Source of the DNA: a virus
IMG/VR virus record: IMGVR_UViG_3300031687_000007
Location: 1 to 64,000 of that record
Strand: one strand, 5' to 3'
DNA: 64,000 nucleotides
In this document: positions 14,912 through 50,599 of the stretch, one piece after another
How positions within the stretch are numbered: position 1 is the stretch's first letter
Layout of the letters: every line of letters begins with the position of its first letter
The notes under the pieces: generated by a model
Databases searched by the model: none
Seen by the model: only the letters and a program-made list of their open reading frames with translations
Told to the model about the DNA's origin: nothing
Program-made: the position numbers and the translations under genes

Positions 14912-17900
14912 ATGTCTGAGCAAGATCTTCTTAGCACCCCACTTAATTCGCCTAACCAAGAAACTCAGCTAGCAGACGTATCATTACAACCAGCGTCAGC
15001 TGTTGTGCCTTCGGCACCAGCTGCCACTGTACCTATGGGCATTGATCAGAGTCTATATCAAGCAGCACCGGCTACCGGTATGCAAGACTTTGGTAGAACC
15101 AAATCAGAAAGTCTATCTATATCTTCAGACAACAAAGTTGAGCGCCTAGCTAATAGTACTAACCTAAAAAACCTTATATATAGAAAGGATGATGGTACGT
15201 CTTTTGATGTATCAAGCGTCTCCTCATCTGAGCGAGATAGTGCTGCCGTCATGTCTGTGGATCAAGCACAGAAGATGTTAGGTGCTGGTGCACGTACTAT
15301 TGGATCATTCATGGACAACCAATCAGTAGAAGATTGGGGCCAGTCAGTTGTAGATCAACAGATCATAGATCTAGAAGAAGGAGGCTATGAGCCTCTATCT
15401 GGTGGTATGAGTGTTCGTGAAATGTTTAAAGAACGTGGAGCGGGTAGTGCACTAGGTCGTGTATGGGAAATGATGCAAGAGAACCTTGCTACCTCTGGTG
15501 TCTCACTAGCAGGTGGAGCTGCTGCAGCCCTTACTGCACCATTTAGTGGTACCGCTGCTATTATGGTTCTAGGTGGAACTACATTAGCATCTGGTGCTAT
15601 GGGTGTGGGTGAGTCCGCTCTGGAGATGGAAGACAAGGGTGTTGAGATAAACGATGCTAAAGCTATAGGCACAGGTATATTGATTGGCCTACTAGACCGA
15701 TTCGGTGCCGGCAAGGTTATACCTAAAAACCTTCTCACCCGGATGACAGGTGATGCCATTGTTAAGCGCCTGGTTGAGAAAGGCTTTGTTGATGCAGCTA
15801 AGGGAGTTGCTAAAACTATCCTAGGCAAGGCTGCATGGGAGTCGGGTACTGAGGTAGCTCAGGAAGCACTCATCATTAATACTGCTGCCTCACAGGGAGC
15901 TGAGTACACCAAAGACGAGATAATTGATCGCTTTATTGATGTGGCATTTGTTGCTGCAGGCATGGGTGGTACTACTGCTACTGTGTCTGGCACTGTTGAA
16001 TATGGTAAAGCTGTTAGTACTAAGATAGCTAGCACTGTCAGTGACACACTTGTGGATGTCCGAGAACGTGCTGAAGTAGCTGCTGTACAAATTGAAGAGA
16101 TTGATAGGAGTAATTCTCCTACCCCTGTGGAAGGTGTGCCTCTTGATCCAACTACTGCAAAGACACCTGATTCTCCTACAGTAGCTCTTATAAGATTCTC
16201 TGCTGCTAATGATTATCTAAAAATACCAGTAGGAGAGAGAACCACTGAAAACACTCAGGCCTACATGGATGAGTACAATAAGCATTTAGAAGCGGCTCAG
16301 ACTTTCATAACTGAGCAGGAAGCATTAGGTACGCCAGTACCAAAAGCACAAAGTGATTTCGTAGGTGACTCTTTCACAGGTACAGATCAAGTAGCTGAGG
16401 AATATACTCGCCTAGTAGAAGTGGAAGGTGCTACAGATAATGATGCTCTAAAGATCGCAGTAGACCTATTAGCCTCCAAAGCAGAGGGAATGACCACTGC
16501 GGAAGACAAGAAGACATTCATAGAAGACACCCTTGGATCCATGGATCTAAGTAACGTATCAAGAAAAGGGTCTCCTACGTCCGCTGAGTTGCAAGATGTT
16601 AAGAATAAGCTTGGCATCAAGGATGGTGAAAATACTAAACTAGATACATACATAGCTCTTCGTAAGTCCGTGGAGAGTGTGTCTGACCAAGTAATGTCAG
16701 GTGAAGAGTCTGACGGTAAGTTTAAAGGTCTTAAGTGGCATATAGCACAGGTTACTGAAGCAACTAAGCGTGGTAATTCTGATGAGGCAACCAGTAAGTT
16801 AGACTTCCTTAAGAAGTGGTCAGATTACCAAGCATTTAAGACCACTAAGTTCCAAGAGATCCAGGCATACAATGCTGAGATCCAGGCAGGTAACTCACCA
16901 ACTCTTCCAACTAAGCTAGGTGGTGTTACCTACTTAGGCAAGGCAATTGACAATTTCACAATAGATTTTGAAGCATTTGGAGTTGATAAGACAACAGAAG
17001 AAGGTAAGAAGGTATGGTTCTATAATAAGACCAAAACACCTGCCCTAATTGCTACCATGGAGACTGACAGTGCTGCCATAGCAGACGTTCATGCTCAACT
17101 GGCCTCATTATATGCCCCAACTGTAGAAGTCCCTGTAGCGGCTCCTGTGAAGCCTAAAGAACAAGCACCTGTAACTGAAGTTCCTTCAATGGAAGATCAG
17201 GTAATAATTGACCAAACTGAGTCACAGATCAGCAAGCTAGAGGCTAAGTTAGCCAAAAAGCACTCTAAAGAGGAAGGCAAGCTGTGGAACAAGACAAAGA
17301 AGCTCATGGAAGCACGTTTGGTTAAGATGGGAGTGGTTCCTGTAGTTGAAGAGGACTTCTTAACATTCTCTGCAGAAGAGTCCGCCCAAGTTCATGAGGA
17401 TATTGCAGAAGATGCTGCACAAAGAAAGGTAGATAATCCAACCTTGGATCCAGAGCTAGCTTACAACACGCAGACCGGTTTATTTGAAGAAGCTACAGAT
17501 GTACCTACCAACATGGTGGTTACTAATGACAGCCCAGACTCTTCTATTAAACTTAGTGATTTCTTTGAGAATACAGGAAATGGTAGTACCACTGATGTAC
17601 AGGGAGCTGTTACCCCTGACATAGCTGAGGACTCCCTAATAGGTAAGAGTTACTTGAAGACTGTTAGAAACTTCTTCAAGAATTATCCTAAGATTACCCA
17701 CATTCTTAAATTAGATGACCGTCAGACTAAAGTATTAGGAAGTGTTCGTGATCTATTACGAATCATGTATAAAAACATGCCTGATGCTATTGAGAGTTTG
17801 CGTGGCAATGACTACGCCTATTCTGTTAACGCTGTTGGTGCAGACAAGAAGCAGACATGGAAAGTACTACAGTTCCCAATGCTTCTATTAGCTAAAGGTG

Positions 17901-20900
17901 CCAAAGAGAGGGCTAACTCTGCTAAAGGACATAAGGGTACTATAAAAGCGTTGTTCGATACTAATGTACTGAACATAATCAATATTACTGGCCTTAACTG
18001 GGTCACTACTATGGGTCAGAGCACTTTATACAATACTTCTGAGGACATTCACAAGATTGCCTCTAGTGAAGGTACTGCTCGCAAGATGAGTGATGAGACC
18101 ACACAAAAACTACACATAGCAGGTACCTTATACGGTAACGTAGTAGAACAGTTGGGTAAGGCAGTGTTTAACCAGTTAGGAATCAAGGTTAAGCAAGATG
18201 CACTGGCAATACATGGAGATCGTATGATTACGTCTCTAGGTATGGCAGCGGTAGAGTCGCTTATCGCCTCTGGTATGCTTGTTAAGACTCAAATACCAAC
18301 TAAAGACATATACACACTTCAATCCGGTGACTCTCAGGTTACATTTATACGCATAGCTACTGAGAAGACAGACAGCAATCTTGTTTTGGGTCAACCAACT
18401 CCCCTAGTACAATCAGTTCTTGACCTTACTAGTGCTAAAAACGCTAGTGCATACACTACTCTGATTCAGAAGATATCAGGTACTGAGCCTAGAGCTAAGT
18501 TCCCTAGATTTGGCAATGATATTAAGAAGCTTAAGGCAGGTGCTACTTATAATAAGACATCACGTCCATTACCTAAGAAGGTAATTAGTGACGTAAATAG
18601 GATGAATAAGGTCGATTGGAGATTTAAACCAGACATGCTATACCTTCTTCAACCTGAGAATAGAGAAGAAGCTACTGAGTTCTTTAAGCAACTTCAGGGA
18701 TTTGAGTATGCTATTGAAGATCGTCCTCTATACCTTCAGATGGGTGATGTAGGTCGCAATCTGGGTATTGTTAATGAAATTCAAGGTGTGTTCGACTTCT
18801 ATGACATGTATGTTGCAGAAGGAAGTAATGGGCCCTTTCACTTTTCATACAACACAGGTGAGAATGGTCGTCACAACGTCAATGAGAGTGCCTTCAGTTA
18901 CCAAGGCAGTAAGCTAGTTCGCCATCTAATATTCGCTGATAAGTATGCTACAGGATCTAAAGATGGCTTTAGTGTAGAGGTTACAGCTGGACAAGGTGGT
19001 GACCACTTCCAGATGTTCCAATATGCAGTAGTTCAGGCATTAAGTAAGTCAGTAAAAATTGATCATGGTAAACATGACGAGATTGTTACTGAGTTCTATC
19101 GCATAGCTAATGATATGGACACACGAGAGAATGCAGCAGCTGTGTTTGCCGATGGCTATGGATCCTCTGTGACTGAGTATCTACAAGATAATGGCCTAGG
19201 CGCCCATGGTTTGGACGGCTTACAGGCATTAGGAAGCTACCTAAATACCAGTCCAATCCTGGATCAATCTAAAGATACTGCAGATAGTCGAGATAACTCT
19301 AAGACGTTCACTACCGACCTAGCTATCGAGACTGACGCTATTACGAGTGGATTTATGCTTACCCTAATGAACTTCGGTGCGCTAGGTGATAAGAATATTA
19401 GTATGCTCTCTACTGGTGGTATTTTCTTAGCTGATAAAGAGACAGGTGAGTTCCACGAAAGTATTCCTAAATTCAGGGAGAAGACTGGTAACACTAAAGA
19501 CGTGTACACCATGCTTATTGATCCATGGAAATTAGCTGTAGATAAGTTGGTCGGTAAGCATAAAAGACTTTCTCCTATACTAGAATTAGTAGAAATGGAT
19601 CGTAACACTGCTAAACCAATCATCATGCAGGGTAGCTACATGGCTCAATATAAGAGTCTTGTTAATAACTTTATAAATGGCACTTCCGATGGGCAACTGG
19701 GTAAGCTATATGAGCGTATTCATGCTGCAGATAACGCAGGTAAAGTTAAAATATTCACTAACTTACTGGATTTGAAGACCCCTGGAATACAGAAAAGTAA
19801 TCCTACATTATTTAAGACCCGTTTAGATTCATTAATGGGTCTGAAGCTTAATGAGAGCCTATTGCCATACCCCTTAGTTACTAAGTACGAGGAGGTCTTA
19901 AGCAAAGTATATGGTGAGACTCTTACAGACACACTCGACAACATACTAACTATGCGTGACACGGCACAATCTGTTAACAAGATGGTCAACATGATGTCTT
20001 GGTACTACAGATGGCAAGTTAAGAAGGCAATAGATGCTGCTGGTGGCTACGCCAGTCTTACTCCTGCTAAGTTAACTAAGATCTATGAAGATCCTGCCTT
20101 AACAGCCCTACGCCCTTATCTGCCCACACCTGACTCTGTGTTAAAGGAAGAGGGACTTGCAGCACTAGCCAATGAAACAGTACGTGATCATACGTCCACT
20201 GATAATGTTGTTAAAATTAGTGGTCTTACCAACAATGAGGATGGACGTAAGTCTGCATACACACGCTCAGTGGAGAAGCGCACAGCTAATGAAGCAGCCA
20301 GATCCATAGTAGTAACTGTTCAAAGTATTGATGATACTATAGTTCGTGCTGTCATGAGCAAGTACAACGCTATGTCTGCGTTTGACGCTGTGTACACGAG
20401 TATTGGTCAATCTGTTGGCGCCTCACGTACGTACAACCAAAACGTTGCCTCAACTAGTGAAGGCTTCTCTATATTCGAGAACACATACAATAACTTCATG
20501 GAAGTTATGGCTCACACACAAGGTAGTGATAGATCTAACCTAGATGGCTTCATAAACTTCATGTCTGAAGATACTGAGGGCTTTAATTCTAAGAACTTCT
20601 CTGTAAGTACATTCTTACCTGAGATGTCCGGTGTTAATATCAGAGAGTCTGATTCAATGGAGTTCTTGCGTGACAGTATAACTGACACAATAGCTGGCAT
20701 GACGGAACAGAATGATGAAGTAGCTTCTAACCGTAAGGAGTTCTTTGAACGCTTACGTGTAGTGGATCACATGGGCATGCCTGGTACAGCCTTCAAAGTG
20801 AAACCCGGCGAAGATAGCCTTGGATCAATTACCCCTGTTAATGATGATGAGTTCAGCTACACTAAAGCAGGTGATTTGATTGCCGGCAATGTAGAGAAGA

Positions 20901-23900
20901 TATTTGATGGTATTAAAGATAATCGTACTAACTCTCCTGAGCATGTAGCAAAGCTTCGTGATGTACTTAATCGTATCGTATCTAAAGTAATTAAGACTAC
21001 TGACAAGTACGAGCTACACATGCAGTCTAAAGGTGAGACCTCATATGGCCGTCAGAGAGACGGTAAGGTCTTCTTGAACATTGGTAAGGGATTAGCCTTA
21101 AACCTTGTTACACCGTCTGCACAAGAGTCCTATGTACATGAACTTGTACACGTCATTACTCGTGCTGCTTTAAGTGACCCAAAGGCTAACGCTATCGTAC
21201 GTAAGCTTAGTGCCACTATGAGAGATACTGTTACTCATCTAGAAGAGAAGTACAACGGTAAGCCTTGGAGAGTGTTTCTACAACGCGATGCTAAAGGTAA
21301 CCCTGTGTATTCAGTCAATGTTAAGGAAGAGATCAAGGCTGCTAAAGCAGCTTATGACTATGTTTTTAACAATGCTCAGATGATAGAGACTCAATACATA
21401 GATACTGACTCAGGTAAGAAAGGTACCACCAAGATTCGTGCAGGATTGCATGAGTTCCTAGCATACGCATTGACCAACGAGCACCTAAACAGCGCTCTAG
21501 TGGGCATGAAAGTATCTAAGTATCAAGAAGTTGGTTCTCAGGATACTATCTTCCAGAAACTATTAGCTATCTTAGAGAATGTTATGGCCTGGGCTAAAGG
21601 TCTTATAGAGAAAGCTCAGAAGGCAACCCCAGCTGGTAACAATGCTGAACTTATTGAGCAGATGGTAGAAGAGCTTACTCATGTAAATGATAAGTTTAGA
21701 TTCCGTACTCAGAAAGCAGTTGTTGCGATGACTGCAGCTAACAAAAAGGTAGTTGATGCTATAACTGAGAAGATGCTTAAGCCATTAGCAGAGAAGACTC
21801 TTTCTGCTAGAGATCATGCGATATTGGAGCGTAAGTTAGGTAAGGCATACGCATTACTATTTGTAGGATATATCAACCCAGTATCTCGTATAGAAAGTCG
21901 AACCAAGATGGACATAGTTCGTAAGTCTATGCAGGCATCCAAACGTAACTTTATAACTGAGCTGTATCGTGAGATCACAGGTAATGTGACACCTCATCAA
22001 CGTATCCTTGAAAAGATGTTAATGGATGCAAAGAAGAATTTAGAGTCACAACGCGATGATGCTATAAGTGCTATTGCCATTAACATATCACGTGGATATA
22101 TTGAAGGAGCTGGTGCACTGTCTACGTTTGAAGATGAGTCACACACAAGAGTGTTGATAGAGACTAATATTTCTTCTCTTATTAAAGATTGGACTAAAGT
22201 TAATATTCCTGCACTTGCTAGTATCATCTCAGACGATGCTACCAGAGCTAAGGCTATTGTTGATGTACGTAAAAAGCTTAATGCATATGGCAGATTAGGT
22301 GATTACTACATCGGTATGGCTAACAGCCTTGGATCAATCATGGCAACACAAAAGGCCACAGTAGATGGTTCCTTGATGAACGCTGCTCTGATAGCCCGTG
22401 CTGACGACCTAAAAGGTGTTCCTGGTATTAGAATGCCTGAGGTAATGAAAGATGCTGAAGCCCTCATAAATGAATTAGCTACCCTTACAGCCCTTGAATA
22501 TAACACCCAAGATGCTAGACAGGCTGTGGCTAATGTTATGCTACGAGAGCATGCGAATAATTCAGAAAGGAATGCTGCAATCAACACATTGACTCAGATT
22601 GATGAGTTCAATAAGCAGTCTTTGGCTCGTAACTTTGATGGTAATAATATTCAGCAGTCTGCAGGCTACTCTAAAGATATCTACAATCCGGATATTAGTA
22701 TCAGAGTGGATACTGTAGAGATGGAGGCCGAATATAAGAAGCAAGGTTATGTTATGGATCCAGGTATTATACCTACTGATCCTGCCGATACAGACTCTCC
22801 TGCTACCATGAGAATGTACGTTAATAAGTCAGGTGGGCATGGTATTAGACAAAAGTTCATCATGTCTGTTACTAACACCAACATGTCAGGACAGAGTATA
22901 ACCAAGAGAGCTAGTGAGAGTGGGGATAAGGCTGCCTTTGCAAAAGCTAAGAGATTGGTAAGAAATGTACGTGCACAGAATAAGCTTGAAGCATTGAAGC
23001 TACTAGGTAATCCTGATTATGTGAGCAGTAAGCCTAACATCATGATCCCTGTAACTGATCAGCTTGGTAAGGTAATGGACTTCCGCTATACAATGGAGAA
23101 GTCTAAGAGAGCCCGTGTATTTGAACAGAAAGCTGGTATGACAGCTGTATTGAGCCATATGTATGGTGGTATCGTAGATAAAGAAGAGACTCCTCGTATT
23201 AATAACAAGGTAATTGAAGAGCTGCACCTACAGTATCGTGAAAAAGGTATGAAAGGTAACAGAGACTTCGTAGAGGTGTCTTTAAACGCTAAGACTGAAG
23301 AGCTTAGAGAACTTTATATGATACTTCCAGACAGCACCAAGAGGTTCATAAAGTCACACACCGGTTCTGATAAAGTTATGATCCAGGCTGAGTTTATAGA
23401 CATAGTATTTGGTCGCAAAAAGGTACAGTTACCTGGAGGCGACAAGATGCAAGTAGCCACTAATGCATGGACACAGATGATTGCTGCAGCCAAGAAGAAC
23501 ATTGTAATAAAGTGGCCTGCAACTTTATCTATGAACGTATTGTCTAACACTATGTTAGGTATTCTTTCTGGAGTACCACCTGAGTATATGGTTAAGATGC
23601 AGGCAGAAGGTGCCATTAAGCTTAATAACTATGTGGAAGATGGTAAGCAGCTTAGAGATCTTAACCTTCAGTTAATGACTGCTAAGAAGACTGGTAAAAG
23701 TACTAAGAAAATATTGGCTGATATATCTACGGTTGAGAGTAGTATAAATACATCACCAATATTGCCTCTTATTAAAGCAGGTGTATTCCAAACTATCGTG
23801 GAAGACATTGATGTACTGAACAATCCTTATTCGTATGCTTCTAAGATAAGTGAGTTCTTTGATGGTATTCAAGGTAAGGGAGGTAAGGTAGGTGGGTCTG

Positions 23901-24385
23901 TCGCAGGTGCACGTCAAGCTTATCGTTATGCTTACATGAGTGATGACACTGCAGTATTTAAGGCCTTAATGAAGACCACGCAGTTTAGTGACTTTGCTGG
24001 TAGGTATGCAATCTACCAATACATGACTGTGCATGAGAGTGTGGAAGAAAGTGCTGCATTGGAACATGTTATGGATGGTTTCGTTAACTACGAAACACCT
24101 ACTAACAAGTACATCCAGTTTGCCAACGACTATGGCTTACAGATGTTTACTAAGTACGGTTTCAGAATACTACGTGCTATCTCTGCTTTGCTCCATGGCA
24201 AACCGTTGAACGCTATAGGCTTCTTAGTACTTAATGATGTACTTGCTGCAGGTCTAGCATCACCATTTGATGCCACTCCTTTTGATAACTATGCTAGTCC
24301 AGTGACTAACATAATATCTGCAACTACACAGAGTGGTACTAAGGCAGCAATGGACACTGCCTCACTACTGGGTGTGATTGACTAG
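14912..24385 (+). CDS. Virion-encapsidated RNA polymerase (N4 gp50-like), 3157 aa
   Basis: This giant protein carries a T7-family single-subunit RNA polymerase core in its centre. Visible motifs are GENGR (R1320, TxxGR-like), motif A with D1475 (ETDAITSG), motif B with R1564, K1568 and Y1576 (RNTAKPIIMQGSY), and motif C with D1825 (SAFDAVYTS). The K-to-Y spacing of 8 and the D-to-D distance of 350 fit N4 gp50, whose core also lies centrally. Residues about 185-345 hold hydrophobic Gly/Ala-rich stretches that may contact the host membrane. After the core there is a zinc-protease-like HELVH at 2076-2080, with H2180-E2181 about 100 residues on. It would be packaged, injected and then transcribe early genes from hairpin promoters. 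Confidence 0.93.
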   Translation: MSEQDLLSTPLNSPNQETQLADVSLQPASAVVPSAPAATVPMGIDQSLYQAAPATGMQDFGRTKSESLSISSDNKVERLANSTNLKNLIYRKDDGTSFDVSSVSSSERDSAAVMSVDQAQKMLGAGARTIGSFMDNQSVEDWGQSVVDQQIIDLEEGGYEPLSGGMSVREMFKERGAGSALGRVWEMMQENLATSGVSLAGGAAAALTAPFSGTAAIMVLGGTTLASGAMGVGESALEMEDKGVEINDAKAIGTGILIGLLDRFGAGKVIPKNLLTRMTGDAIVKRLVEKGFVDAAKGVAKTILGKAAWESGTEVAQEALIINTAASQGAEYTKDEIIDRFIDVAFVAAGMGGTTATVSGTVEYGKAVSTKIASTVSDTLVDVRERAEVAAVQIEEIDRSNSPTPVEGVPLDPTTAKTPDSPTVALIRFSAANDYLKIPVGERTTENTQAYMDEYNKHLEAAQTFITEQEALGTPVPKAQSDFVGDSFTGTDQVAEEYTRLVEVEGATDNDALKIAVDLLASKAEGMTTAEDKKTFIEDTLGSMDLSNVSRKGSPTSAELQDVKNKLGIKDGENTKLDTYIALRKSVESVSDQVMSGEESDGKFKGLKWHIAQVTEATKRGNSDEATSKLDFLKKWSDYQAFKTTKFQEIQAYNAEIQAGNSPTLPTKLGGVTYLGKAIDNFTIDFEAFGVDKTTEEGKKVWFYNKTKTPALIATMETDSAAIADVHAQLASLYAPTVEVPVAAPVKPKEQAPVTEVPSMEDQVIIDQTESQISKLEAKLAKKHSKEEGKLWNKTKKLMEARLVKMGVVPVVEEDFLTFSAEESAQVHEDIAEDAAQRKVDNPTLDPELAYNTQTGLFEEATDVPTNMVVTNDSPDSSIKLSDFFENTGNGSTTDVQGAVTPDIAEDSLIGKSYLKTVRNFFKNYPKITHILKLDDRQTKVLGSVRDLLRIMYKNMPDAIESLRGNDYAYSVNAVGADKKQTWKVLQFPMLLLAKGAKERANSAKGHKGTIKALFDTNVLNIINITGLNWVTTMGQSTLYNTSEDIHKIASSEGTARKMSDETTQKLHIAGTLYGNVVEQLGKAVFNQLGIKVKQDALAIHGDRMITSLGMAAVESLIASGMLVKTQIPTKDIYTLQSGDSQVTFIRIATEKTDSNLVLGQPTPLVQSVLDLTSAKNASAYTTLIQKISGTEPRAKFPRFGNDIKKLKAGATYNKTSRPLPKKVISDVNRMNKVDWRFKPDMLYLLQPENREEATEFFKQLQGFEYAIEDRPLYLQMGDVGRNLGIVNEIQGVFDFYDMYVAEGSNGPFHFSYNTGENGRHNVNESAFSYQGSKLVRHLIFADKYATGSKDGFSVEVTAGQGGDHFQMFQYAVVQALSKSVKIDHGKHDEIVTEFYRIANDMDTRENAAAVFADGYGSSVTEYLQDNGLGAHGLDGLQALGSYLNTSPILDQSKDTADSRDNSKTFTTDLAIETDAITSGFMLTLMNFGALGDKNISMLSTGGIFLADKETGEFHESIPKFREKTGNTKDVYTMLIDPWKLAVDKLVGKHKRLSPILELVEMDRNTAKPIIMQGSYMAQYKSLVNNFINGTSDGQLGKLYERIHAADNAGKVKIFTNLLDLKTPGIQKSNPTLFKTRLDSLMGLKLNESLLPYPLVTKYEEVLSKVYGETLTDTLDNILTMRDTAQSVNKMVNMMSWYYRWQVKKAIDAAGGYASLTPAKLTKIYEDPALTALRPYLPTPDSVLKEEGLAALANETVRDHTSTDNVVKISGLTNNEDGRKSAYTRSVEKRTANEAARSIVVTVQSIDDTIVRAVMSKYNAMSAFDAVYTSIGQSVGASRTYNQNVASTSEGFSIFENTYNNFMEVMAHTQGSDRSNLDGFINFMSEDTEGFNSKNFSVSTFLPEMSGVNIRESDSMEFLRDSITDTIAGMTEQNDEVASNRKEFFERLRVVDHMGMPGTAFKVKPGEDSLGSITPVNDDEFSYTKAGDLIAGNVEKIFDGIKDNRTNSPEHVAKLRDVLNRIVSKVIKTTDKYELHMQSKGETSYGRQRDGKVFLNIGKGLALNLVTPSAQESYVHELVHVITRAALSDPKANAIVRKLSATMRDTVTHLEEKYNGKPWRVFLQRDAKGNPVYSVNVKEEIKAAKAAYDYVFNNAQMIETQYIDTDSGKKGTTKIRAGLHEFLAYALTNEHLNSALVGMKVSKYQEVGSQDTIFQKLLAILENVMAWAKGLIEKAQKATPAGNNAELIEQMVEELTHVNDKFRFRTQKAVVAMTAANKKVVDAITEKMLKPLAEKTLSARDHAILERKLGKAYALLFVGYINPVSRIESRTKMDIVRKSMQASKRNFITELYREITGNVTPHQRILEKMLMDAKKNLESQRDDAISAIAINISRGYIEGAGALSTFEDESHTRVLIETNISSLIKDWTKVNIPALASIISDDATRAKAIVDVRKKLNAYGRLGDYYIGMANSLGSIMATQKATVDGSLMNAALIARADDLKGVPGIRMPEVMKDAEALINELATLTALEYNTQDARQAVANVMLREHANNSERNAAINTLTQIDEFNKQSLARNFDGNNIQQSAGYSKDIYNPDISIRVDTVEMEAEYKKQGYVMDPGIIPTDPADTDSPATMRMYVNKSGGHGIRQKFIMSVTNTNMSGQSITKRASESGDKAAFAKAKRLVRNVRAQNKLEALKLLGNPDYVSSKPNIMIPVTDQLGKVMDFRYTMEKSKRARVFEQKAGMTAVLSHMYGGIVDKEETPRINNKVIEELHLQYREKGMKGNRDFVEVSLNAKTEELRELYMILPDSTKRFIKSHTGSDKVMIQAEFIDIVFGRKKVQLPGGDKMQVATNAWTQMIAAAKKNIVIKWPATLSMNVLSNTMLGILSGVPPEYMVKMQAEGAIKLNNYVEDGKQLRDLNLQLMTAKKTGKSTKKILADISTVESSINTSPILPLIKAGVFQTIVEDIDVLNNPYSYASKISEFFDGIQGKGGKVGGSVAGARQAYRYAYMSDDTAVFKALMKTTQFSDFAGRYAIYQYMTVHESVEESAALEHVMDGFVNYETPTNKYIQFANDYGLQMFTKYGFRILRAISALLHGKPLNAIGFLVLNDVLAAGLASPFDATPFDNYASPVTNIISATTQSGTKAAMDTASLLGVID

Positions 24386-30550: not shown

Positions 30551-30567
30551 AATGTGCGGAGCACATT
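30551..30567 (-). promoter_or_regulatory. Virion-RNAP-type hairpin promoter (H4)
   Basis: On the plus (template) strand, AATGTGC and GCACATT form a perfect 7-bp stem around GGA. N4 virion-RNAP promoters have exactly such a stem with a C-GGA-G closed 3-base loop on the template strand. The hairpin points at the gp42-like gene, whose ATG is 18 bases past the stem. The N4 spacing would put +1 near 30548, where there is no C-C pair, so this is the weakest of the four. Confidence 0.6.
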
Positions 30568-36783: not shown

Positions 36784-36802
36784 AAGAGAGCGGAGCTCTC
36801 TT
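36784..36802 (-). promoter_or_regulatory. Virion-RNAP-type hairpin promoter (H3)
   Basis: The plus strand reads AAGAGAGC-GGA-GCTCTCTT, a perfect 8-bp stem with the N4-type GGA loop. It is preceded by CACAAAA, as N4 P2 has CCAAAA. Transcription would run leftward into the SPFH gene, 37 bases away. The stop codon of the upstream gene lies in the stem. Confidence 0.85.
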
Positions 36803-40637: not shown

Positions 40638-40652
40638 ACGTGCGGAGCGCGT
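40638..40652 (-). promoter_or_regulatory. Virion-RNAP-type hairpin promoter (H2)
   Basis: On the plus strand ACGTGC-GGA-GCGCGT forms a 6-bp stem with one G-T wobble around the GGA loop, preceded by CAACAAA. With the N4 geometry (loop centre -11), +1 is C40634 on the template. The MoxR ATG is 29 bases further on. A terminator sits immediately upstream. Confidence 0.75.
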
Positions 40653-44586: not shown

Positions 44587-44786
44587 TATTTCATACTCCT
44601 TGTATCCCAGTTCTCAATGATAGTACTACCACTTATACCCTGCTTGACCCTATCTTTAGGACGAGTGTCTTCCCCAACAGGCTCATACAGATGTTTAGTA
44701 CATGCAATACCAAATACTTGACCATCTTGATGGATACCTTTAACAACAGGTAACCCCTTCTGACAACCATCACAGCTATTAGTCAT
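44586..44786 (-). CDS. 66-residue Cys-containing protein
   Basis: The protein begins MTNSCDGCQKGLPVVKG and has a third Cys and a His further on (IACTKHLYEP), suggesting a zinc knuckle. It is hydrophilic and ends IENWDTRSMK. Its start overlaps the preceding membrane-protein gene by 4 bases and its stop the next gene by 1. Function is unknown. Confidence 0.55.
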   Translation of the reverse strand: MTNSCDGCQKGLPVVKGIHQDGQVFGIACTKHLYEPVGEDTRPKDRVKQGISGSTIIENWDTRSMK

Positions 44787-45106
44787 TTGGACTCCCTTGC
44801 TTCATCCATCTCAGCACGTACCTTAAGTAATAACTCCTCCAACTCCTCAGGAGAGTTTACAACTTCAAATCGTGCATTCTCTTGAGAAGCACTCTCACTC
44901 TTTATATAGTGCATAAACAGCATGTGTGCTCGGTTAACACTACTCAATGTGACAACCACTAACAGATTGACTACACCGAAGAATACACACGTAAGTATAA
45001 ATAATAGGTTTGGATCAATAGACCCTCCCCCTGATATATGTACTGACACTGATGCCATTACAATAACTGGCAGCACTATTAATGCCTTGGTTACATTAGT
45101 TAACAT
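44783..45106 (-). CDS. Two-span membrane protein
   Basis: The 107-residue protein has hydrophobic segments at about residues 7-24 (KALIVLPVIVMASVSVHI) and 34-55 (LLFILTCVFFGVVNLLVVVT), then a charged, mostly acidic helical tail (EELEELLLKVRAEMDEARES). A terminator and a vRNAP-type promoter lie upstream. An early inner-membrane protein is likely; superinfection or metabolic effects cannot be told apart. Confidence 0.6.
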   Translation of the reverse strand: MLTNVTKALIVLPVIVMASVSVHISGGGSIDPNLLFILTCVFFGVVNLLVVVTLSSVNRAHMLFMHYIKSESASQENARFEVVNSPEELEELLLKVRAEMDEARESK

Positions 45107-45129: not shown

Positions 45130-45154
45130 AAAAAAAGACTCCAATTAAGGAGTC
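45130..45154 (-). terminator. Terminator between H1 promoter and downstream early genes
   Basis: GACTCC and GGAGTC pair around AATTAA; on the minus strand a run of TTTTTT follows. It lies between the H1 promoter (45223) and the gene at 45106, so most RNA from H1 would end here. Confidence 0.88.
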
Positions 45155-45160
45155 GTAGGG

Positions 45161-45206
45161 TTTGAAATGGACAATTACTAGTAAAATTACTAGTCTTTGA
45201 AATGGA
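45161..45206. repeat. 11-bp direct repeats flanking an 18-bp palindrome
   Basis: TTTGAAATGGA occurs at 45161-45171 and 45196-45206, with the palindrome ACTAGTAA-AA-TTACTAGT (45177-45194) between them. The near-symmetric layout suggests a protein or RNA-structure site. Confidence 0.75.
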
Positions 45207-45222
45207 TGATTTAGTTCACCAA

Positions 45223-45239
45223 AGGGCACGGAGTGCCCT
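45223..45239 (-). promoter_or_regulatory. Virion-RNAP-type hairpin promoter (H1)
   Basis: The plus strand reads AGGGCAC-GGA-GTGCCCT, a perfect 7-bp stem with a GGA loop, preceded by TTCACCAAA. Counting the loop centre as -11, +1 and +2 fall on C45220 and C45219, the same CC placing as N4 P2. Transcription would run leftward. This is the best match of the four sites. Confidence 0.85.
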
Positions 45240-45246
45240 CCCTAAT

Positions 45247-46230
45247 CTATGATAGTGCGTACTCTGATTTACGGATCAATGATGCTAGATCATCAGAATC
45301 CTTTGTTATGGATATATTTTGACCAGTTACATCCTTTACAAATATCTCCATAGCATTCATCTCAGACAAGGTAGCAAGTATCTCTCGATAATTCCTACGT
45401 ACCGTATTCATATGGTTCGGTGATGCCCAGAATGAGTCATGAATGTGAGCTATTTGGATCCCCTGCTTATTGCCCATACGAATCATCATACGTGCTACCC
45501 ACCCATCTAAACTATGAATGAAGTTAGGACATAATGGAGTGTACTTACCACTAGGCTGGTTATTAGTATGACGGTACGTAAAGGTAGTATGATCAAGCTC
45601 ATCTACCTCAATACGAGTATCAATAGCCTCAGTAACTCGTACCTTAGCTATGTGACCATCTGGAGTACTCCACTTATGGAACAGTGCACCTGCATCCCAA
45701 CAATCGTTGATTAATTCCTTCACATCTTCTGCACCACTAAAGGATGAGAACAGTACCTTATCGAAAGCATCCTTCTGAGCTTGTGTAAGCGTCTCCTGGA
45801 CACTCTTGTTGTAATAGTGCGTCATTATAGGCTTCTTAACATCACCTCTCACAACAGCATCTGTTGGATCTAACAGCATGTTCATGCCATCAGCTACCTT
45901 AGTGTATACGTCTTCCCTGTTACCCGTATCAATAAGGTTAACCGCAGCTGCAGTCTTCTTACATCCTGACAGGCATGCCATCACCTGTAGACCAGACGCA
46001 GTAGCATCTAATGACATTACATATCCTGTGGGAATACCCTTCAATGCATCTTTATGTGCATTAAGAGCCTTCACAAACAAGAACTTGTTATCTGCTTCAG
46101 GCGCCATGTCGTACAAGTCCTTCTCATTACAATCAAACCAGAATATCCTCTGCTGCCAAGTAAGCTTGTCCATACCAAACTCATTAGCTGCTGCTATCTT
46201 GATGTACTCTAAACCTGTAAACGTTTCCAT
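45247..46230 (-). CDS. RNA polymerase subunit RNAP2 (N4 gp16-like)
   Basis: The 327-residue protein is the catalytic C-terminal half of a T7-type RNA polymerase. It has motif A SLDATASGLQ (D75), motif B KKPIMTHYYNKS (K132, Y140; spacing 8 as in T7) and motif C with FIHSLDG (238-243) and HIHDSF (D265). In N4, the T7-like enzyme for middle genes is split in two proteins, gp15 and gp16; the same split is seen here. It must pair with RNAP1 (46419-47285). A 60-residue gene lies between them. RNAP2 would transcribe the replication genes. Confidence 0.92.
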   Translation of the reverse strand: METFTGLEYIKIAAANEFGMDKLTWQQRIFWFDCNEKDLYDMAPEADNKFLFVKALNAHKDALKGIPTGYVMSLDATASGLQVMACLSGCKKTAAAVNLIDTGNREDVYTKVADGMNMLLDPTDAVVRGDVKKPIMTHYYNKSVQETLTQAQKDAFDKVLFSSFSGAEDVKELINDCWDAGALFHKWSTPDGHIAKVRVTEAIDTRIEVDELDHTTFTYRHTNNQPSGKYTPLCPNFIHSLDGWVARMMIRMGNKQGIQIAHIHDSFWASPNHMNTVRRNYREILATLSEMNAMEIFVKDVTGQNISITKDSDDLASLIRKSEYALS

Positions 46231-46239
46231 AGTGTTCCC

Positions 46240-46422
46240 CTAGTTAATGTTTAGTTCATCTAACTTATTTGCCAGCTCTCTAAGTAGCCAACTATGTAGC
46301 TCATAAATACCTGACTCAAACACATAGTAGTCACCATGGTTATCTATAGTGCCTATGTGCCCTGAGCCCATATACACTTCAATCTCATTAGGATTTACCA
46401 CACGATACGTCAATTCATTCAT
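46240..46422 (-). CDS. 60-residue protein between RNAP1 and RNAP2
   Basis: Its ATG overlaps the RNAP1 stop (ATGA), and RNAP2 begins 9 bases after its own stop. The protein begins MNELTYRVVNPNEIEVYMGS and has a helical end (SWLLRELANKLDELNIN). Its small size and tight coupling suggest a helper or bridging subunit of the heterodimeric polymerase, which is inference. No family is recognised. Confidence 0.6.
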   Translation of the reverse strand: MNELTYRVVNPNEIEVYMGSGHIGTIDNHGDYYVFESGIYELHSWLLRELANKLDELNIN

Positions 46423-47285
46423 AGTGTTATAACCTCTTGTTTTGTAAAGGATAATAGGGCTTTCTTATAGTCAGATGACTGAAAGTTTATGTGGTAACCT
46501 GATGAGTAAGACCTACCTCGCTTATCAAACTTCCACATGAAGTAGAATGGTATGTTCGTATACTCATGATACACACGCTTACTGGTTATACTCATGATCT
46601 TAAACTGAAGAGCTTTCTTAGGGGTATCCAGCTCCTTATTAGGTTGCTCTTTCATAGCCATAATCATGGGATCTAGCGTCCACTCAATAGACTGCAGTAT
46701 GTTCAAACAGTCCAAAGACTGACTATGGTTGTGATGGTTCTCCTTACCAAGAATACAGCTCTCTTCCTGAGTATGAAGACCGCCACCTTTGTTCATAGTC
46801 CACATCTTAGGCTTCAATACCAATGGTGGTACATACATGAACTCCTCGATCTTACTCAACACCTCAGTACTAGGTATTAGGTATGGCTCAATCGCTAGCG
46901 TCCCTGTAGGGTTCTCTGAGTAGTCATGAGCTAACAACTCATACAACTTACCCTCACATACTGCGATGATCTCAGCAGCTGTTTTGACCCCATCTAAGAG
47001 CTTTTCAGCCAGTAGAGGAGCAAGTGAACCGCACAATCCTTGAATAGGAGTGATTTCACCATTACACCGCATGATAGATGCAGCTAAATGGTAAGCAATG
47101 TCTAAAGATTCTACCCGTATCTCCTTAATACGTAGGTTCTTAGACTCATAGCTATACTGTTGATTCTTATACGTTTCTATTGCAAATACTAACCCTACAA
47201 TACTCTCTAAATCTGTGTCATCTTTTAACGATGACATTAGACCTCTACGTGAGTATGTAGTCTCCAACAATTCTTGCTTGTTCAT
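46419..47285 (-). CDS. RNA polymerase subunit RNAP1 (N4 gp15-like)
   Basis: The 288-residue protein represents the N-terminal half of the T7-like enzyme. Near its C-terminus FYMWKFDKRGRSYSSGYHIN contains the DxRGR motif of T7 RNAP (DWRGR), followed by SDYKKALLSF. Residues 160-200 hold 'WTMNKGGGLHTQEES' like the fork between promoter-binding and catalytic parts. The size is close to N4 gp15 (269). It would associate with RNAP2 to transcribe middle genes. Confidence 0.9.
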   Translation of the reverse strand: MNKQELLETTYSRRGLMSSLKDDTDLESIVGLVFAIETYKNQQYSYESKNLRIKEIRVESLDIAYHLAASIMRCNGEITPIQGLCGSLAPLLAEKLLDGVKTAAEIIAVCEGKLYELLAHDYSENPTGTLAIEPYLIPSTEVLSKIEEFMYVPPLVLKPKMWTMNKGGGLHTQEESCILGKENHHNHSQSLDCLNILQSIEWTLDPMIMAMKEQPNKELDTPKKALQFKIMSITSKRVYHEYTNIPFYFMWKFDKRGRSYSSGYHINFQSSDYKKALLSFTKQEVITL

Positions 47286-47298
47286 AAGTATTCCTTGG

Positions 47299-47547
47299 TT
47301 AGAATGGCATATAAGGTATAACTTTCTGGACTATCTGAGTGGCTACTTCCCTATGGATCACATATGTATCAGACCTAGTGCCCCATACAACCTTCAAATG
47401 TTCCATCTTGTAGTAGTCAGCAGCATGTTGCTCACATATGTTGTCACAACTCTGCATAAACCCGCTTATCTCCTCAATATAGTGAGGCTTAAACAGGTTA
47501 ATCTTAGTCACCAGCTTCTTACATTCACAAGTGTGTTCACATACCAT
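47299..47547 (-). CDS. Cys-rich early protein
   Basis: The 82-residue protein starts MVCEHTCECKKLVTKINLFK and has further Cys at DNICEQHA. CxxxCxC near the start and His nearby could bind zinc. It lies 13 bases before the RNAP1 gene. Composition is otherwise mixed. No family is recognised. Confidence 0.55.
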   Translation of the reverse strand: MVCEHTCECKKLVTKINLFKPHYIEEISGFMQSCDNICEQHAADYYKMEHLKVVWGTRSDTYVIHREVATQIVQKVIPYMPF

Positions 47548-47556
47548 GACAACTCC

Positions 47557-47763
47557 TTACATATAGTCAGTTAGGTCAACATCCCTTGAATGTAGGTAAG
47601 TCTTGATCAACTCATCTGCAAACTCCTGGTCAATACTTCCAGAGTCTAGGTCAGCTATCAATTTGATTGCTAATGCAGTGTAAAACCCGTATTCGGTTAT
47701 TGCCCATGGCTCTATATCAAATATATAGTCACTAAAACGGTTCAGGAACTCTATTGTGCTCAT
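47557..47763 (-). CDS. 68-residue helical acidic early protein
   Basis: GGAGAA lies 6-7 bases before the ATG at 47763. The product (MSTIEFLNRFSDYIFDIEPW...) is predicted helical and acidic (DLDSGSIDQEFADELIK). It overlaps the upstream gene by 32 bases. It may be a host-protein inhibitor of the kind common in the early region of N4-like phages. Function is unknown. Confidence 0.55.
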   Translation of the reverse strand: MSTIEFLNRFSDYIFDIEPWAITEYGFYTALAIKLIADLDSGSIDQEFADELIKTYLHSRDVDLTDYM

Positions 47764-47983
47764 TGTAATTCTCCACTCTTATTTTAATTTCTCTAGCTAC
47801 AAACATACACACCCTGTAACTACACATAGTCTTCCCGAAAGTCAGCAATAGCGTGACTCTCTTAGCTGTAATACATCTATCACAACTACATTGGTGATAT
47901 TTGCTAGGTACAAGTCTTGATATAAATACCTTGTTAGGCATTGCCATAAACATCTTAAATTCTATCTCCTTGCATACATCCAT
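47732..47983 (-). CDS. Cys-rich basic early protein
   Basis: The start is set at ATG 47983 with AGGAGG just upstream (spacing 4); the frame extends to 48031. The 83-residue product contains YHQCSCDRC and two later Cys (TMCSYRVC), with a 'KVFISRLVPSK' stretch before them. The closely spaced CxCxxC may be a zinc site. Function is unknown. Confidence 0.6.
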   Translation of the reverse strand: MDVCKEIEFKMFMAMPNKVFISRLVPSKYHQCSCDRCITAKRVTLLLTFGKTMCSYRVCMFVAREIKIRVENYNEHNRVPEPF

Positions 47984-48056
47984 GAGACCTCCTGTAACTA
48001 TCTCTAAGACAATATAAGACTTACCATACACAATGTGCAGAGTAAGCCTTTAAACA

Positions 48057-48206
48057 TCATACAGAGCCTTCTAGCGCCTCTGACTTGCTTCTAATCAACT
48101 TGTAAGGAGATACAAACGTAAATATACGGTTATACTCCTCATTGTCACACTCAGATGGATGAAAATGCTCTTCAGCCAACGTGGATACATCAATAAATTC
48201 AAACAT
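48057..48206 (-). CDS. 49-residue early protein
   Basis: GGGGAA lies 6 bases before the ATG at 48206, and the stop of the gene upstream is 2 bases away. The product begins MFEFIDVSTLAEEHFHPSEC and continues into a NRIFTFVSPYKLIRSKSEA segment. Acidic N-terminus and mixed C-terminus. The good initiation site makes it likely real. Function is unknown. Confidence 0.6.
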   Translation of the reverse strand: MFEFIDVSTLAEEHFHPSECDNEEYNRIFTFVSPYKLIRSKSEALEGSV

Positions 48207-48208
48207 AA

Positions 48209-48478
48209 CTATTCCCCAATGTTATATGAACAACCATTCTCTTGACGGGTGATATCCTTACGTGGAATACCATTGCCAACTAGGTCAGCAATACACTCAT
48301 TCTGAATGTCATACTGGTCTTGATACTGAACAAATGAGTTAACTCCCTTGTCCATCAATATTGATAAACTAAATAAAACTACAGTCGAAACAATCACTGC
48401 ACATGTTATTAATAACACCATGTTTATAGTATTATTATTATTACCAATACTCGCACTACGCTCTAATTTTCTACGCAT
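48209..48478 (-). CDS. Single-span early membrane protein
   Basis: The 89-residue protein has a basic N-terminus (MRRKLERSASIGNNNN), one span (about residues 19-41, VLLITCAVIVSTVVLFSLS) and a soluble, Cys-containing C-terminal part (ECIADL...ENGCSYN) expected in the periplasm. The two Cys could form a disulphide there. Such topology suits a superinfection-exclusion or receptor-blocking protein. That role is inferred only. Confidence 0.6.
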   Translation of the reverse strand: MRRKLERSASIGNNNNTINMVLLITCAVIVSTVVLFSLSILMDKGVNSFVQYQDQYDIQNECIADLVGNGIPRKDITRQENGCSYNIGE

Positions 48479-48503
48479 TTCCTACTCCACTTATATTAAT
48501 TTA

Positions 48504-48533
48504 AAGGGAGACCACATAACGTGATCCCCCCTT
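48504..48533 (-). terminator. Probable terminator after 48541-48900 gene
   Basis: AAGGG..CCAC pairs with GTG..CCCTT around ATAAC, with G-T wobbles and a mismatch. On the minus strand TTTAAATT follows. Its position 8 bases after the stop supports a terminator, though the stem is imperfect. Confidence 0.5.
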
Positions 48534-48540
48534 GGTATTA

Positions 48541-48900
48541 CTAGTCACCGAATACATCATCTTCAGTGAACGGAGAGTTATAGAACAACTCTTCAGTACT
48601 AAACTTAGCAATGAATGCAGCTTTACCAGCTGGGTTACCATTCACCCAAGCAAGGTTAATCTTCTTGCCTTTAGCGTTAACTCGAAAGACCACTGTACCC
48701 TTAGGTAAAGTTTCCATCTGAAGCACTGCCTCACGCTCTTTAAAGTACTGACCATCAACATTATCCCAATGTGCTTGGATCGAACTATGTAAGTTCAAGA
48801 TTCCACACTGGTTACCTTCGGAATCATATACGAATACACCAGGTGCATTGTTGTATACGATAGGAGTTACTGTTGCTTTTACTGAGGTATTTGCTTTCAT
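48541..48900 (-). CDS. Early hypothetical protein, beta-rich
   Basis: The 119-residue protein (MKANTSVKATVTPIVYNNAP...) has repeating strand-like segments and a possible OB-like or SH3-like fold, ending acidic (SPFTEDDVFGD). It is near the right end of the early region and has an unusually long, G-free leader upstream (minus strand). No family is recognised. It may be one of the first proteins made after infection. Confidence 0.6.
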   Translation of the reverse strand: MKANTSVKATVTPIVYNNAPGVFVYDSEGNQCGILNLHSSIQAHWDNVDGQYFKEREAVLQMETLPKGTVVFRVNAKGKKINLAWVNGNPAGKAAFIAKFSTEELFYNSPFTEDDVFGD

Positions 48901-48928
48901 AATATGTTCCGTATTAATAAAGAATTAA

Positions 48929-48944
48929 GACACGAAGTTGTGTC
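48929..48944 (-). terminator. Hairpin with T-rich flank
   Basis: GACAC and GTGTC form a 5-bp stem (extendable by a G-T pair) around GAAGTT; TTAATTCTTTATT follows on the minus strand. It could be a weak terminator or a leader hairpin of the 48541-48900 gene. Confidence 0.4.
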
Positions 48945-49011
48945 ATTTATATAAGAAGAAAGGTTCGCTTGACCTAACTGTTAGTTAAGTACTCTTGCCC
49001 TATCTTCATAC

Positions 49012-49145
49012 ATAGAGTAAGAAGGGTTAGTATGTGTGAGGGTTTGATTTGAGTGAGGATGGTGGTTGTGGTTAGTATTAGAGTGGGTGTGAAATGTAGG
49101 AGGAGAGAGGTAGAGTAAGATATATGGAAGTTTATAAGAGGTAAA
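49012..49145. other. 134-base tract with no C on the plus strand
   Basis: From 49012 to 49145 not one C occurs on the plus strand, while G is frequent. The minus-strand transcript would therefore have no G. Neighbouring sequence has normal C content. No short repeat unit explains it, and it encodes no likely protein. Confidence 0.9.
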
Positions 49146-49255
49146 CCTAATTAAACCAGTGGTATAGCCCGTAGCCAGTAGCTTTCCTTGCCCTATCTTG
49201 TTGGTTGTTTGGTGTGATTTGTTGGTGTGATTTCTTAGCTTGTGGTAAAAATATA

Positions 49256-49275
49256 CCCCACCCGTTAGGGTGAGG
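49256..49275 (-). terminator. Terminator after first early gene
   Basis: CACCC and GGGTG pair around GTTA, extended by CC/GG across a mismatch. The minus strand continues TATATTTTTA. It lies 8 bases after the stop of the 49283-49510 gene. Confidence 0.8.
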
Positions 49276-49282
49276 ATTAGGC

Positions 49283-49510
49283 TTAGGCCTTGGCTTCGTC
49301 TGATGCTAGGCGTAGTGCTTTGCGATGAGCGAATAGGTCTGCTAGTGTCATGTCAGCGTCTGCTAGAGCTTCGTTGACCATGTTGGTTGATGCTACTTCC
49401 ATAGCGATGGCACCGTTAGCTAGTGAGATCATAGCTGAGTCGGTGAAGAGTGCTGCGTGATTCACTTGTGATGCGATGAATGCTGTTGTACGTGCTACTT
49501 GCTTGAACAT
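49283..49510 (-). CDS. First early gene, 75-residue hypothetical protein
   Basis: AAGGAAT lies 6 bases before the ATG. The product begins MFKQVARTTAFIASQVNHAA, is predicted helical throughout, Ala-rich and mildly amphipathic, and ends RKALRLASDEAKA. Its G+C and Ala codon use are higher than those of its neighbours. It has its own terminator and is the rightmost minus-strand gene, so it is expected to be the first gene to enter the cell. Function is unknown. Confidence 0.65.
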   Translation of the reverse strand: MFKQVARTTAFIASQVNHAALFTDSAMISLANGAIAMEVASTNMVNEALADADMTLADLFAHRKALRLASDEAKA

Positions 49511-49891
49511 ATGTAATTCCTTAAGGTTAATTTAATTGTGGTTGGTACCGTTCATTGAATAAGAAAGCTTTTGCTGTTGGTGTGAAAGGCTTAACGTCCC
49601 TTGGTAGTCTTATAGGGGGGGGGTCTTTGTTTGTTCTAGTCTCTGCTTCTTAAGTACTGTGTCAGCCTCAACATATAATATTTCTGAAAATACCTATATT
49701 AGTTTTTCTGTATATACGGGGTACTTGTAAAGAGAGACGTACTTATGTACTATCCTCTTATACTACTCCTGTTAAGGATATATAGGTGAGTAAGGCGAAG
49801 CGAAGCGAGAGCCTTACGAACCGTGTATTGTATTAATGATCTGTTATATGTAGACTATGACTCTATTATAAATATTATAGCGGTTATTGTT
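49511..49891. other. 381-base divergent gap containing presumed genome terminus
   Basis: No convincing gene is present between the first early gene and the gp69-like gene. It holds a run of 9 G (49615-49623), AT-rich segments, a GTACTTATGTAC repeat (49739-49750), a TCCT/AGGA hairpin near 49767-49778, and a perfect stem GTAAGGC/GCCTTAC (49790-49817) with a 14-base loop containing GAAGC twice. The early and terminase ends of the N4 map meet here. Confidence 0.55.
49790..49817. repeat. 7-bp perfect stem-loop upstream of gp69-like gene
   Basis: GTAAGGC and GCCTTAC flank GAAGCGAAGCGAGA. No T-tract follows on the plus strand; on the minus strand the stem runs into TCACCTATAT. Role unknown; a packaging or terminator-like signal is possible. 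Confidence 0.65.
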
Positions 49892-50599
49892 ATGGATCAA
49901 GCACTAGAGGTTAGAGAGGAGTTCCTAAGTAAGGAAGAGTTTGTTATGGCTCTACCTAAGGGATTCAAGAATAAAGTAAGTGACGAGCTAATGTCCTCTA
50001 TCAATGGGGTGTTACAAGATCAAGGTACTAGAGACCAGCTTAGAGAGAACCTGATAGGTTATGGTAGTGTGTTGGCTCAGGGTCGTTATAAGATGGACGA
50101 CTATGTGGCTGCAGTTAAGTATGTGAGCCATAAGGTACTAGGGTCTAGTAATCTGGAGGCATATGTAAAGACCTTCCCAGAGCGTTATAAGAGGCTTCTA
50201 GATGATGGTGTAGATAACCATCGTATTAGTGCGTATTCTTCTGCATATAATAAGAACCAGTTGGTTAATAAGATCCTTGAGCAGTCCCTTGTGCCTTCAT
50301 ATTTGTTGAATGCTGATGTGTTCCAGAGGGCGTTGAATGTTCAGGCTGATTTGATGACAGATCCAGGTGTTAGTCATAAGGTGCGGAGTGATGCTGCTAA
50401 TAGTCTTTTGACCCATCTTAAGAGGCCTGAGAGCATGAAGATAGAGTTAGAAGTGGGGGTAAAAGAGGATCAGTCTATAAATGAGTTGAGGGCTGCTACA
50501 ATGGCCTTGGCTGCTAATCAGAGGGACATGATTAAGTCTGGTATGATGAATGCGAAAGATGTTGCCCATAGTAAAATAATCGAAGGTGAGGTGGTATAG
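49892..50599 (+). CDS. N4 gp69-like packaging protein (possible small terminase)
   Basis: The start is placed at ATG 49892; a GTG 69 bases upstream would add an AT-rich hydrophobic leader not typical of the protein. The 235-residue product (MDQALEVREEFLSKEEF...) is predicted helical. It has an N-terminal domain, a middle 'DNHRISAYSSAYNKNQLVNK' region, and a C-terminal 'DAANSLLTHLKRPESMKIEL' part resembling terminase small subunits. It lies just before the TerL region as gp69 does beside gp68 in N4. DNA recognition for packaging is the likely role. Confidence 0.7.
   Translation: MDQALEVREEFLSKEEFVMALPKGFKNKVSDELMSSINGVLQDQGTRDQLRENLIGYGSVLAQGRYKMDDYVAAVKYVSHKVLGSSNLEAYVKTFPERYKRLLDDGVDNHRISAYSSAYNKNQLVNKILEQSLVPSYLLNADVFQRALNVQADLMTDPGVSHKVRSDAANSLLTHLKRPESMKIELEVGVKEDQSINELRAATMALAANQRDMIKSGMMNAKDVAHSKIIEGEVV

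Follow-up and report, generated by a model that had tools for sequence, protein, structure and literature searches.

A predicted N4-type promoter hairpin and terminated leader behind the RNAP2 gene of an N4-like phage

Why would a phage direct a promoter at a terminator rather than at a gene? This question is raised by positions 45130-45239 of the 64-kb stretch of DNA analyzed here (the window), which is part of the 67,825-base IMG/VR virus record IMGVR_UViG_3300031687_000007. The vRNAP, RNAP1 and RNAP2 proteins encoded in it mark the phage as N4-like and a member of the family Schitoviridae. The virion RNA polymerase (vRNAP; 14912-24385, plus strand), a protein of 3157 aa matching the N4 vRNAP 9pnr (E 1.3e-19), is the presumed user of the promoter hairpin described below; the catalytic residues of the N4 enzyme align with it, and the region of the N4 hairpin-reading residues K114, R119 and W129 is not alignable. 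The early and middle genes lie on the minus strand and run leftwards from ~49.5 kb, among them those for the RNAPII subunits RNAP1 (N4 gp15-like; 46419-47285, PHROG 2166, E 1.5e-53) and RNAP2 (N4 gp16-like; 45247-46230, PHROG 2051, E 9.6e-99), the latter directly upstream of the element.

Relatives were identified by RNAP2-guided searches, which yielded three further contig types with RNAP2 identities to the window of 73% (L005 = L006, contig G1), 71% (L007, G3) and 69% (L044 = L045, L046); L002 carries the window's own sequence, and a search of genome contigs for RNAP2 relatives found none. Near the likely left genome end of the window, at 49600-49650, a C run and the conserved 13-mer AAGGGACGTTAAG are present; the 13-mer is inverted in G1, and N4 likewise has a C run close to its left end.

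The promoter-type hairpin and its counterparts

The hairpin, H1, reads AGGGCAC[GGA]GTGCCCT on the template (plus) strand at 45223-45239 and was found by a hairpin scan; it would direct the synthesis of minus-strand RNA leftwards. It has the N4-type form, with a stem within the range of 5-7 bp, a 3-nt loop, a central purine on the template strand and a C:G closing pair. Comparison with N4 places the predicted start at 45220, where the template C lies 11 nt from the loop centre, the same spacing as in N4, and where AAA in the template is followed by CC, just as it is in the N4 early promoters; the RNA would thus begin with GG.

Hairpins counted in the scan if their loop was 3 nt long, had a pyrimidine at its centre (sense strand) and was closed by a C-G pair, and if the stem had at least 4 bp. 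As a positive control, the first 6.7 kb of N4 were scanned, which recovered hairpins at 96 (TTC loop), 565 and 4554 (TCC loops) together with one other match. These three, which share the +1 spacing with H1, are all of N4's early-region hairpin promoters and agree with the three early promoters reported for this phage. A search of the whole 67.8-kb record for hairpins that read C[TCC]G in sense and whose stem has at least 6 bp found three in sense and none in antisense orientation, at an expectation of 0.035 per dinucleotide shuffle. The same bias was seen in G1 (3:0 sense) and, with stems of at least 5 bp, in other Schitoviridae loci (23 sense versus 1 antisense).

The hairpin is kept in all four variants, i.e., the window and its three relatives. 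Its stem is 100% paired across them and includes two compensated pairs, while the TCC loop and the closing C-G pair are invariant and occur on one strand only. An earlier note on this DNA had called H1 the best vRNAP promoter and had proposed comparing its stems among related phages. The strength of the stem and the GG start speak for the first of these claims, but the G at -8, whose contact is called essential in N4 (PMC3715699), is replaced in the H1 template by A. G is present at this position in the H1 orthologues of the relatives and in the other hairpins of the clade, and A also occurs in several other Schitoviridae hairpins. The comparison of stems was borne out for the promoter hairpin and in part for the terminator, but not for the central palindrome discussed below, which is broken in two of the four variants. 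Overall, the covariation seen in the alignment is modest, as only four sequences are available, two of which are close to each other.

Further hairpins of this type on the minus strand were found at 40638-40652 (ACGCGC[TCC]GCACGT, with one stem mismatch, immediately behind a terminator and ahead of an ATPase-like gene), at 36784-36802 (AAGAGAGC[TCC]GCTCTCTT, before a 470-aa gene) and at 30551-30567 (AATGTGC[TCC]GCACATT, at the start of an exonuclease gene). All three have counterparts in the relatives, each preceding a gene. Hairpins of the vRNAP type thus extend up to ~19 kb inwards of the presumed left end and stand before middle genes, whereas those of N4 all lie at the left end. No N4-type hairpin was detected by the same scan upstream of RNAP1 and RNAP2 on the minus strand of the window (46231-50300). 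Since the hairpins extend this far and none is detectable before the two RNAPII genes, the early program may differ from that of N4. Near 49865, the window shares a conserved TATAAT-like stretch with G1.

Across 36 surveyed hairpin sites, most of the intergenic ones are separated from an ORF by no more than ~80 nt that contain no terminator. A terminator between hairpin and gene was rare and occurred in the block studied here, at site 3 of G1 and in Pylas-like Klebsiella phages. One further site, in L032, had been flagged for this layout and was dismissed, as inspection revealed no T-run. A scan of viral contigs for the hairpin-terminator layout returned the known clade only, and a scan for the core pattern matched the clade contig L043 and four others (L039-L042).

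The terminated leader and its paired repeats

The block behind H1 ends in an intrinsic terminator (45130-45154, minus strand), a G+C-rich stem-loop (45154-45137) with the stem GACTCC/GGAGTC and a TTAATT loop, followed by T7. With a start at 45220, the terminator corresponds to RNA positions 67-90 and precedes any gene, in agreement with the earlier claim of a terminator about 66-90 nt from the H1 start. Comparison with the relatives lends good support to a predicted vRNAP hairpin promoter whose transcript meets a terminator ahead of the first gene. The coordinates first given for the element likewise hold, and the block recurs after RNAP2 in the three other contig types: L005, L007 and L044 all carry the hairpin, two 14-nt repeats, a TTAATT-loop terminator with a T-run and a ribosome-binding site in this position. 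Directly after the RNAP2 stop, the order in all variants is a C[TCC]G hairpin, the repeats, CTTAATTGG with T7-10, and TGAGGTGA. The leaders of the relatives are 60-100 nt long. Terminators orthologous to that of the window score in L005 and L044, while the stem in L007 is degraded, so that three of the four variants, including the window, retain one.

The genes that follow the block differ. In the window, the first gene 3' of the terminator (44783-45106, minus strand) encodes a protein of 107 aa, probably a membrane protein, whose homologues in the relatives either adjoin the block or stand two genes after it. A small, probably membrane, protein is also encoded next in L007, whereas G1 and L045 have two further genes (191/184 and 178/179 aa) separating this usual neighbor from the block. 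The block therefore follows RNAP2 and not one particular downstream gene, and its retention in three related viruses despite the change of the next gene indicates that it is a real element, one that probably yields a very short RNA. The earlier suggestion of an attenuator for the genes at 44.8-45.1 kb is accordingly disfavored: a leader conserved together with the gene it regulates, as expected of a cis attenuator, is not what G1 and L045 display, and because two extra genes intervene in these two relatives, the block is not an attenuator tuned to one gene.

The same comparison bears on the possibility that the short RNA has no role. H1 could simply drive the downstream operon through a terminator that leaks, or hairpin and terminator could act as tandem terminators of RNAP2. 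In L005, L007 and L044, the hairpin passes straight into T5-6 and could therefore itself act as a terminator; a GG start at an N4-like distance was not found in these three and is present in the window only. In other Schitoviridae loci, L012 and L013, RNAP2 is followed by a plain terminator, behind which a hairpin promoter lies. This explanation is nevertheless rather unlikely in our view. The TCC loop and closing C-G pair are invariant and confined to one strand; the other sites of this hairpin in the clade lie 28-50 nt before genes, one of them directly after a separate terminator; and the conserved repeats and their spacing would be left without an obvious reason. After RNAP2 in three other N4-like contigs, L012 (7250), L013 (5908) and L019 (7377), AAACCGATAWACTAAG occurs as a perfect match once per locus; this motif is not shared with the window's clade.

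The predicted terminated RNA (45131-45220, minus strand) of ~90 nt, deduced from the promoter and terminator positions and from folding, has a folding energy of -21.6 kcal/mol (z -4.4). Its 5' end would form a 5-bp hairpin, GGUGA...UCAUC (45205-45220), and the N4 sequence indicates similar hairpins at the start of the transcripts from 96 and 565 (GGAC..GUCC and GGAUG..CAUCC). In the relatives, the leader fold reaches z values of only -1.3 to -1.7, and no conserved antiterminator fold was seen in the leaders of the four variants. RNA folding outside the terminator is not conserved.

This lack of a conserved fold weighs against the idea of a stand-alone, trans-acting phage small RNA of ~90 nt. 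Such an RNA, with AU-rich single-stranded repeats ahead of the terminator and at least 7 U, would associate with Hfq-like proteins of the host and base-pair with mRNAs. Several features fit it: the block remains attached to RNAP2 even where a different gene comes next, every one of the four variants has 7-10 T at the 3' end, the arrangement there is reminiscent of Hfq-binding modules, and the repeats, read as their complement, look like translation starts (TTTRAAATGGA). However, when phage gene starts were considered as targets, duplex energies were no better than those of shuffled RNA (mean z ~0) and the top matches differed between the window and G1, leaving no consistent phage target, and an Rfam scan of 44.5-49.9 kb gave no match up to E 5. 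We regard a trans-acting small RNA as unlikely.

Within the leader, the earlier note had pointed to a perfect palindrome at 45177-45194 flanked by two copies of a short sequence. The coordinates and the flanking TTTGAAATGGA copies (45161-45171 and 45196-45206) are correct, but the symmetric core ACTAGTAAAATTACTAGT consists of 8-nt arms around an AA centre (ACTAGTAA-AA-TTACTAGT) and is thus not unbroken. Its symmetry is compensated in G1 and broken in G3 and L044. What all four variants share is a pair of 14-nt direct repeats (TTTYAAAnnCTARn-like) exactly 35 nt apart, TTTCAAAGACTAGT at 45189-45202 and TTTCAAACCCTACG at 45154-45167 (both minus strand), the last base of the second overlapping the terminator stem. 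The 35-nt lag is the best in three variants and tied best in the fourth. No indel occurs between repeat 1 and the end of the T-run in any variant, while ~19-22 aligned nucleotides between the hairpin and repeat 1 are missing in two. Judged from this alignment, it is the paired repeats and not the palindrome that form the constrained core kept by evolution. A role of the motif as a general middle promoter was rejected because the two copies in the element are the top-scoring sites genome-wide in the window, G1 and L044.

Repeats conserved as primary sequence and with exact spacing, but without a conserved RNA fold, could also act as DNA. The two copies, 35 bp apart, would then be sites for a phage protein, perhaps in a replication origin primed by the short RNA. 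The primary replication origin of T7 is AT-rich intergenic DNA with one or more promoters just after the gene of the single-subunit T7 RNAP. The element resembles it in its AT-rich intergenic DNA (57-93% AT in repeats and spacer) and in a putative promoter directly after an RNAP gene; it differs in that its promoter is of the hairpin type, for a different polymerase. The uniqueness of the 14-mer pair to this site in the window, G1 and L044 and the position directly after a polymerase gene would suit such a DNA element. The GC skew, however, flips with gene direction at 48-50 kb and not at 45.2 kb, and 35 bp is no whole number of helical turns; we consider a DNA element of this kind improbable.

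Comparison with known systems

The early promoters P1-P3 of N4 resemble H1 in their 3-base template loop with a central purine, C:G closing pair and 5-7 bp stem, in the 11-nt distance between the loop centre and the +1 C, in their restriction to the sense strand and in facing the direction of the early and middle genes. They differ in that they carry -8G and precede gp1, gp2 and RNAP1 with no terminator ahead of the gene, whereas H1, with -8A, is located behind RNAP2 and has a terminator downstream. The hairpin promoters predicted for LUZ7, LIT1 and PEV2 (PMC3715699) are likewise 3-nt-loop hairpins read by vRNAP, but these 4-5 nt hairpins precede genes 1, 12 and 13, and no short terminated transcript has been reported for them.

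The earlier statement that no equivalent is known does not stand, given the orthologous blocks within the clade and the similar layouts at G1 site 3 and in Pylas-type Klebsiella phages (L015/L034). The latter two share the succession of a C[TCC]G hairpin, a terminator-like stem with a T-run and a gene, although they occupy other genome positions, have shorter leaders and show no paired 35-nt repeats that we noted. At L015 10860-10980 (also in L034), the terminator-like stem follows the hairpin at once, before the gene, which may represent a promoter-terminator leader. In the Alteromonas phage PT15-A5, a C[TTC]G hairpin lies right after RNAP2 (L003 9042), with a terminator ~100 nt later, and another lies in the gap before the exonuclease gene (L063 43884); the N4 hairpin at 96 has the same TTC loop. 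Small RNAs of virulent phages (sRNA1/2 of PAK_P3; the band C and D RNAs of T4; PMC4933390) are comparable as ~100-nt intergenic RNA candidates with no assigned function, but those of PAK_P3 are made late and were detected by RNA-seq, whereas the RNA of the window would be early and vRNAP-made, and is only predicted. Overall, we see in the element not a new kind of system but a new form of a promoter type already known.

A boundary after the RNAPII genes

The explanation we prefer, although we hold it at about even chances, is that of an N4-type vRNAP promoter with a terminated ~90-nt leader that forms a cassette marking the boundary after the RNAPII genes. Extruded through the action of gyrase, the H1 hairpin would allow the injected vRNAP to start at 45220, and most transcripts would end at 45131. 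The terminator would also catch transcription arriving through RNAP2, so that early transcription through the RNAPII genes would be kept separate from the next operon; later, read-through or RNAPII would supply the downstream genes. An early short leader RNA would be left over. Its functional portion could be the paired repeats, which might alternatively be sites where a protein modulates passage through the terminator. What we observe is a hairpin of promoter type with its strand and spacing, a terminator and conserved repeats of 35-nt period; from these we infer initiation, the efficiency of termination and the boundary role. Least certain is the suggestion that the repeats are binding sites modulating passage through the terminator.

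In favor of such a boundary cassette we count the hairpin statistics and strand bias, the outcome of the N4 control, the presence of vRNAP and RNAPII genes, the shared order after RNAP2, the terminators in three of four variants, the exceptional terminator of this block among the 36 sites and the exact repeat spacing. Against it stand the -8A of H1, the relatives' lack of GG, the run of their hairpin into T5-6, the degraded stem in G3, the missing conserved antiterminator fold, the weak z values of the relatives and the failure of K114, R119 and W129 to align.

It is conceivable, though doubtful, that an early vRNAP-made RNA of less than 100 nt carrying a 14-nt motif twice at a 35-nt period represents a new class of early regulatory RNA, or a control site timing the hand-over from vRNAP to RNAPII. 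That a conserved promoter of this type stands behind the RNAPII genes, serving only a short terminated leader, suggests that the switch from vRNAP to RNAPII involves a further layer of control or a small RNA.
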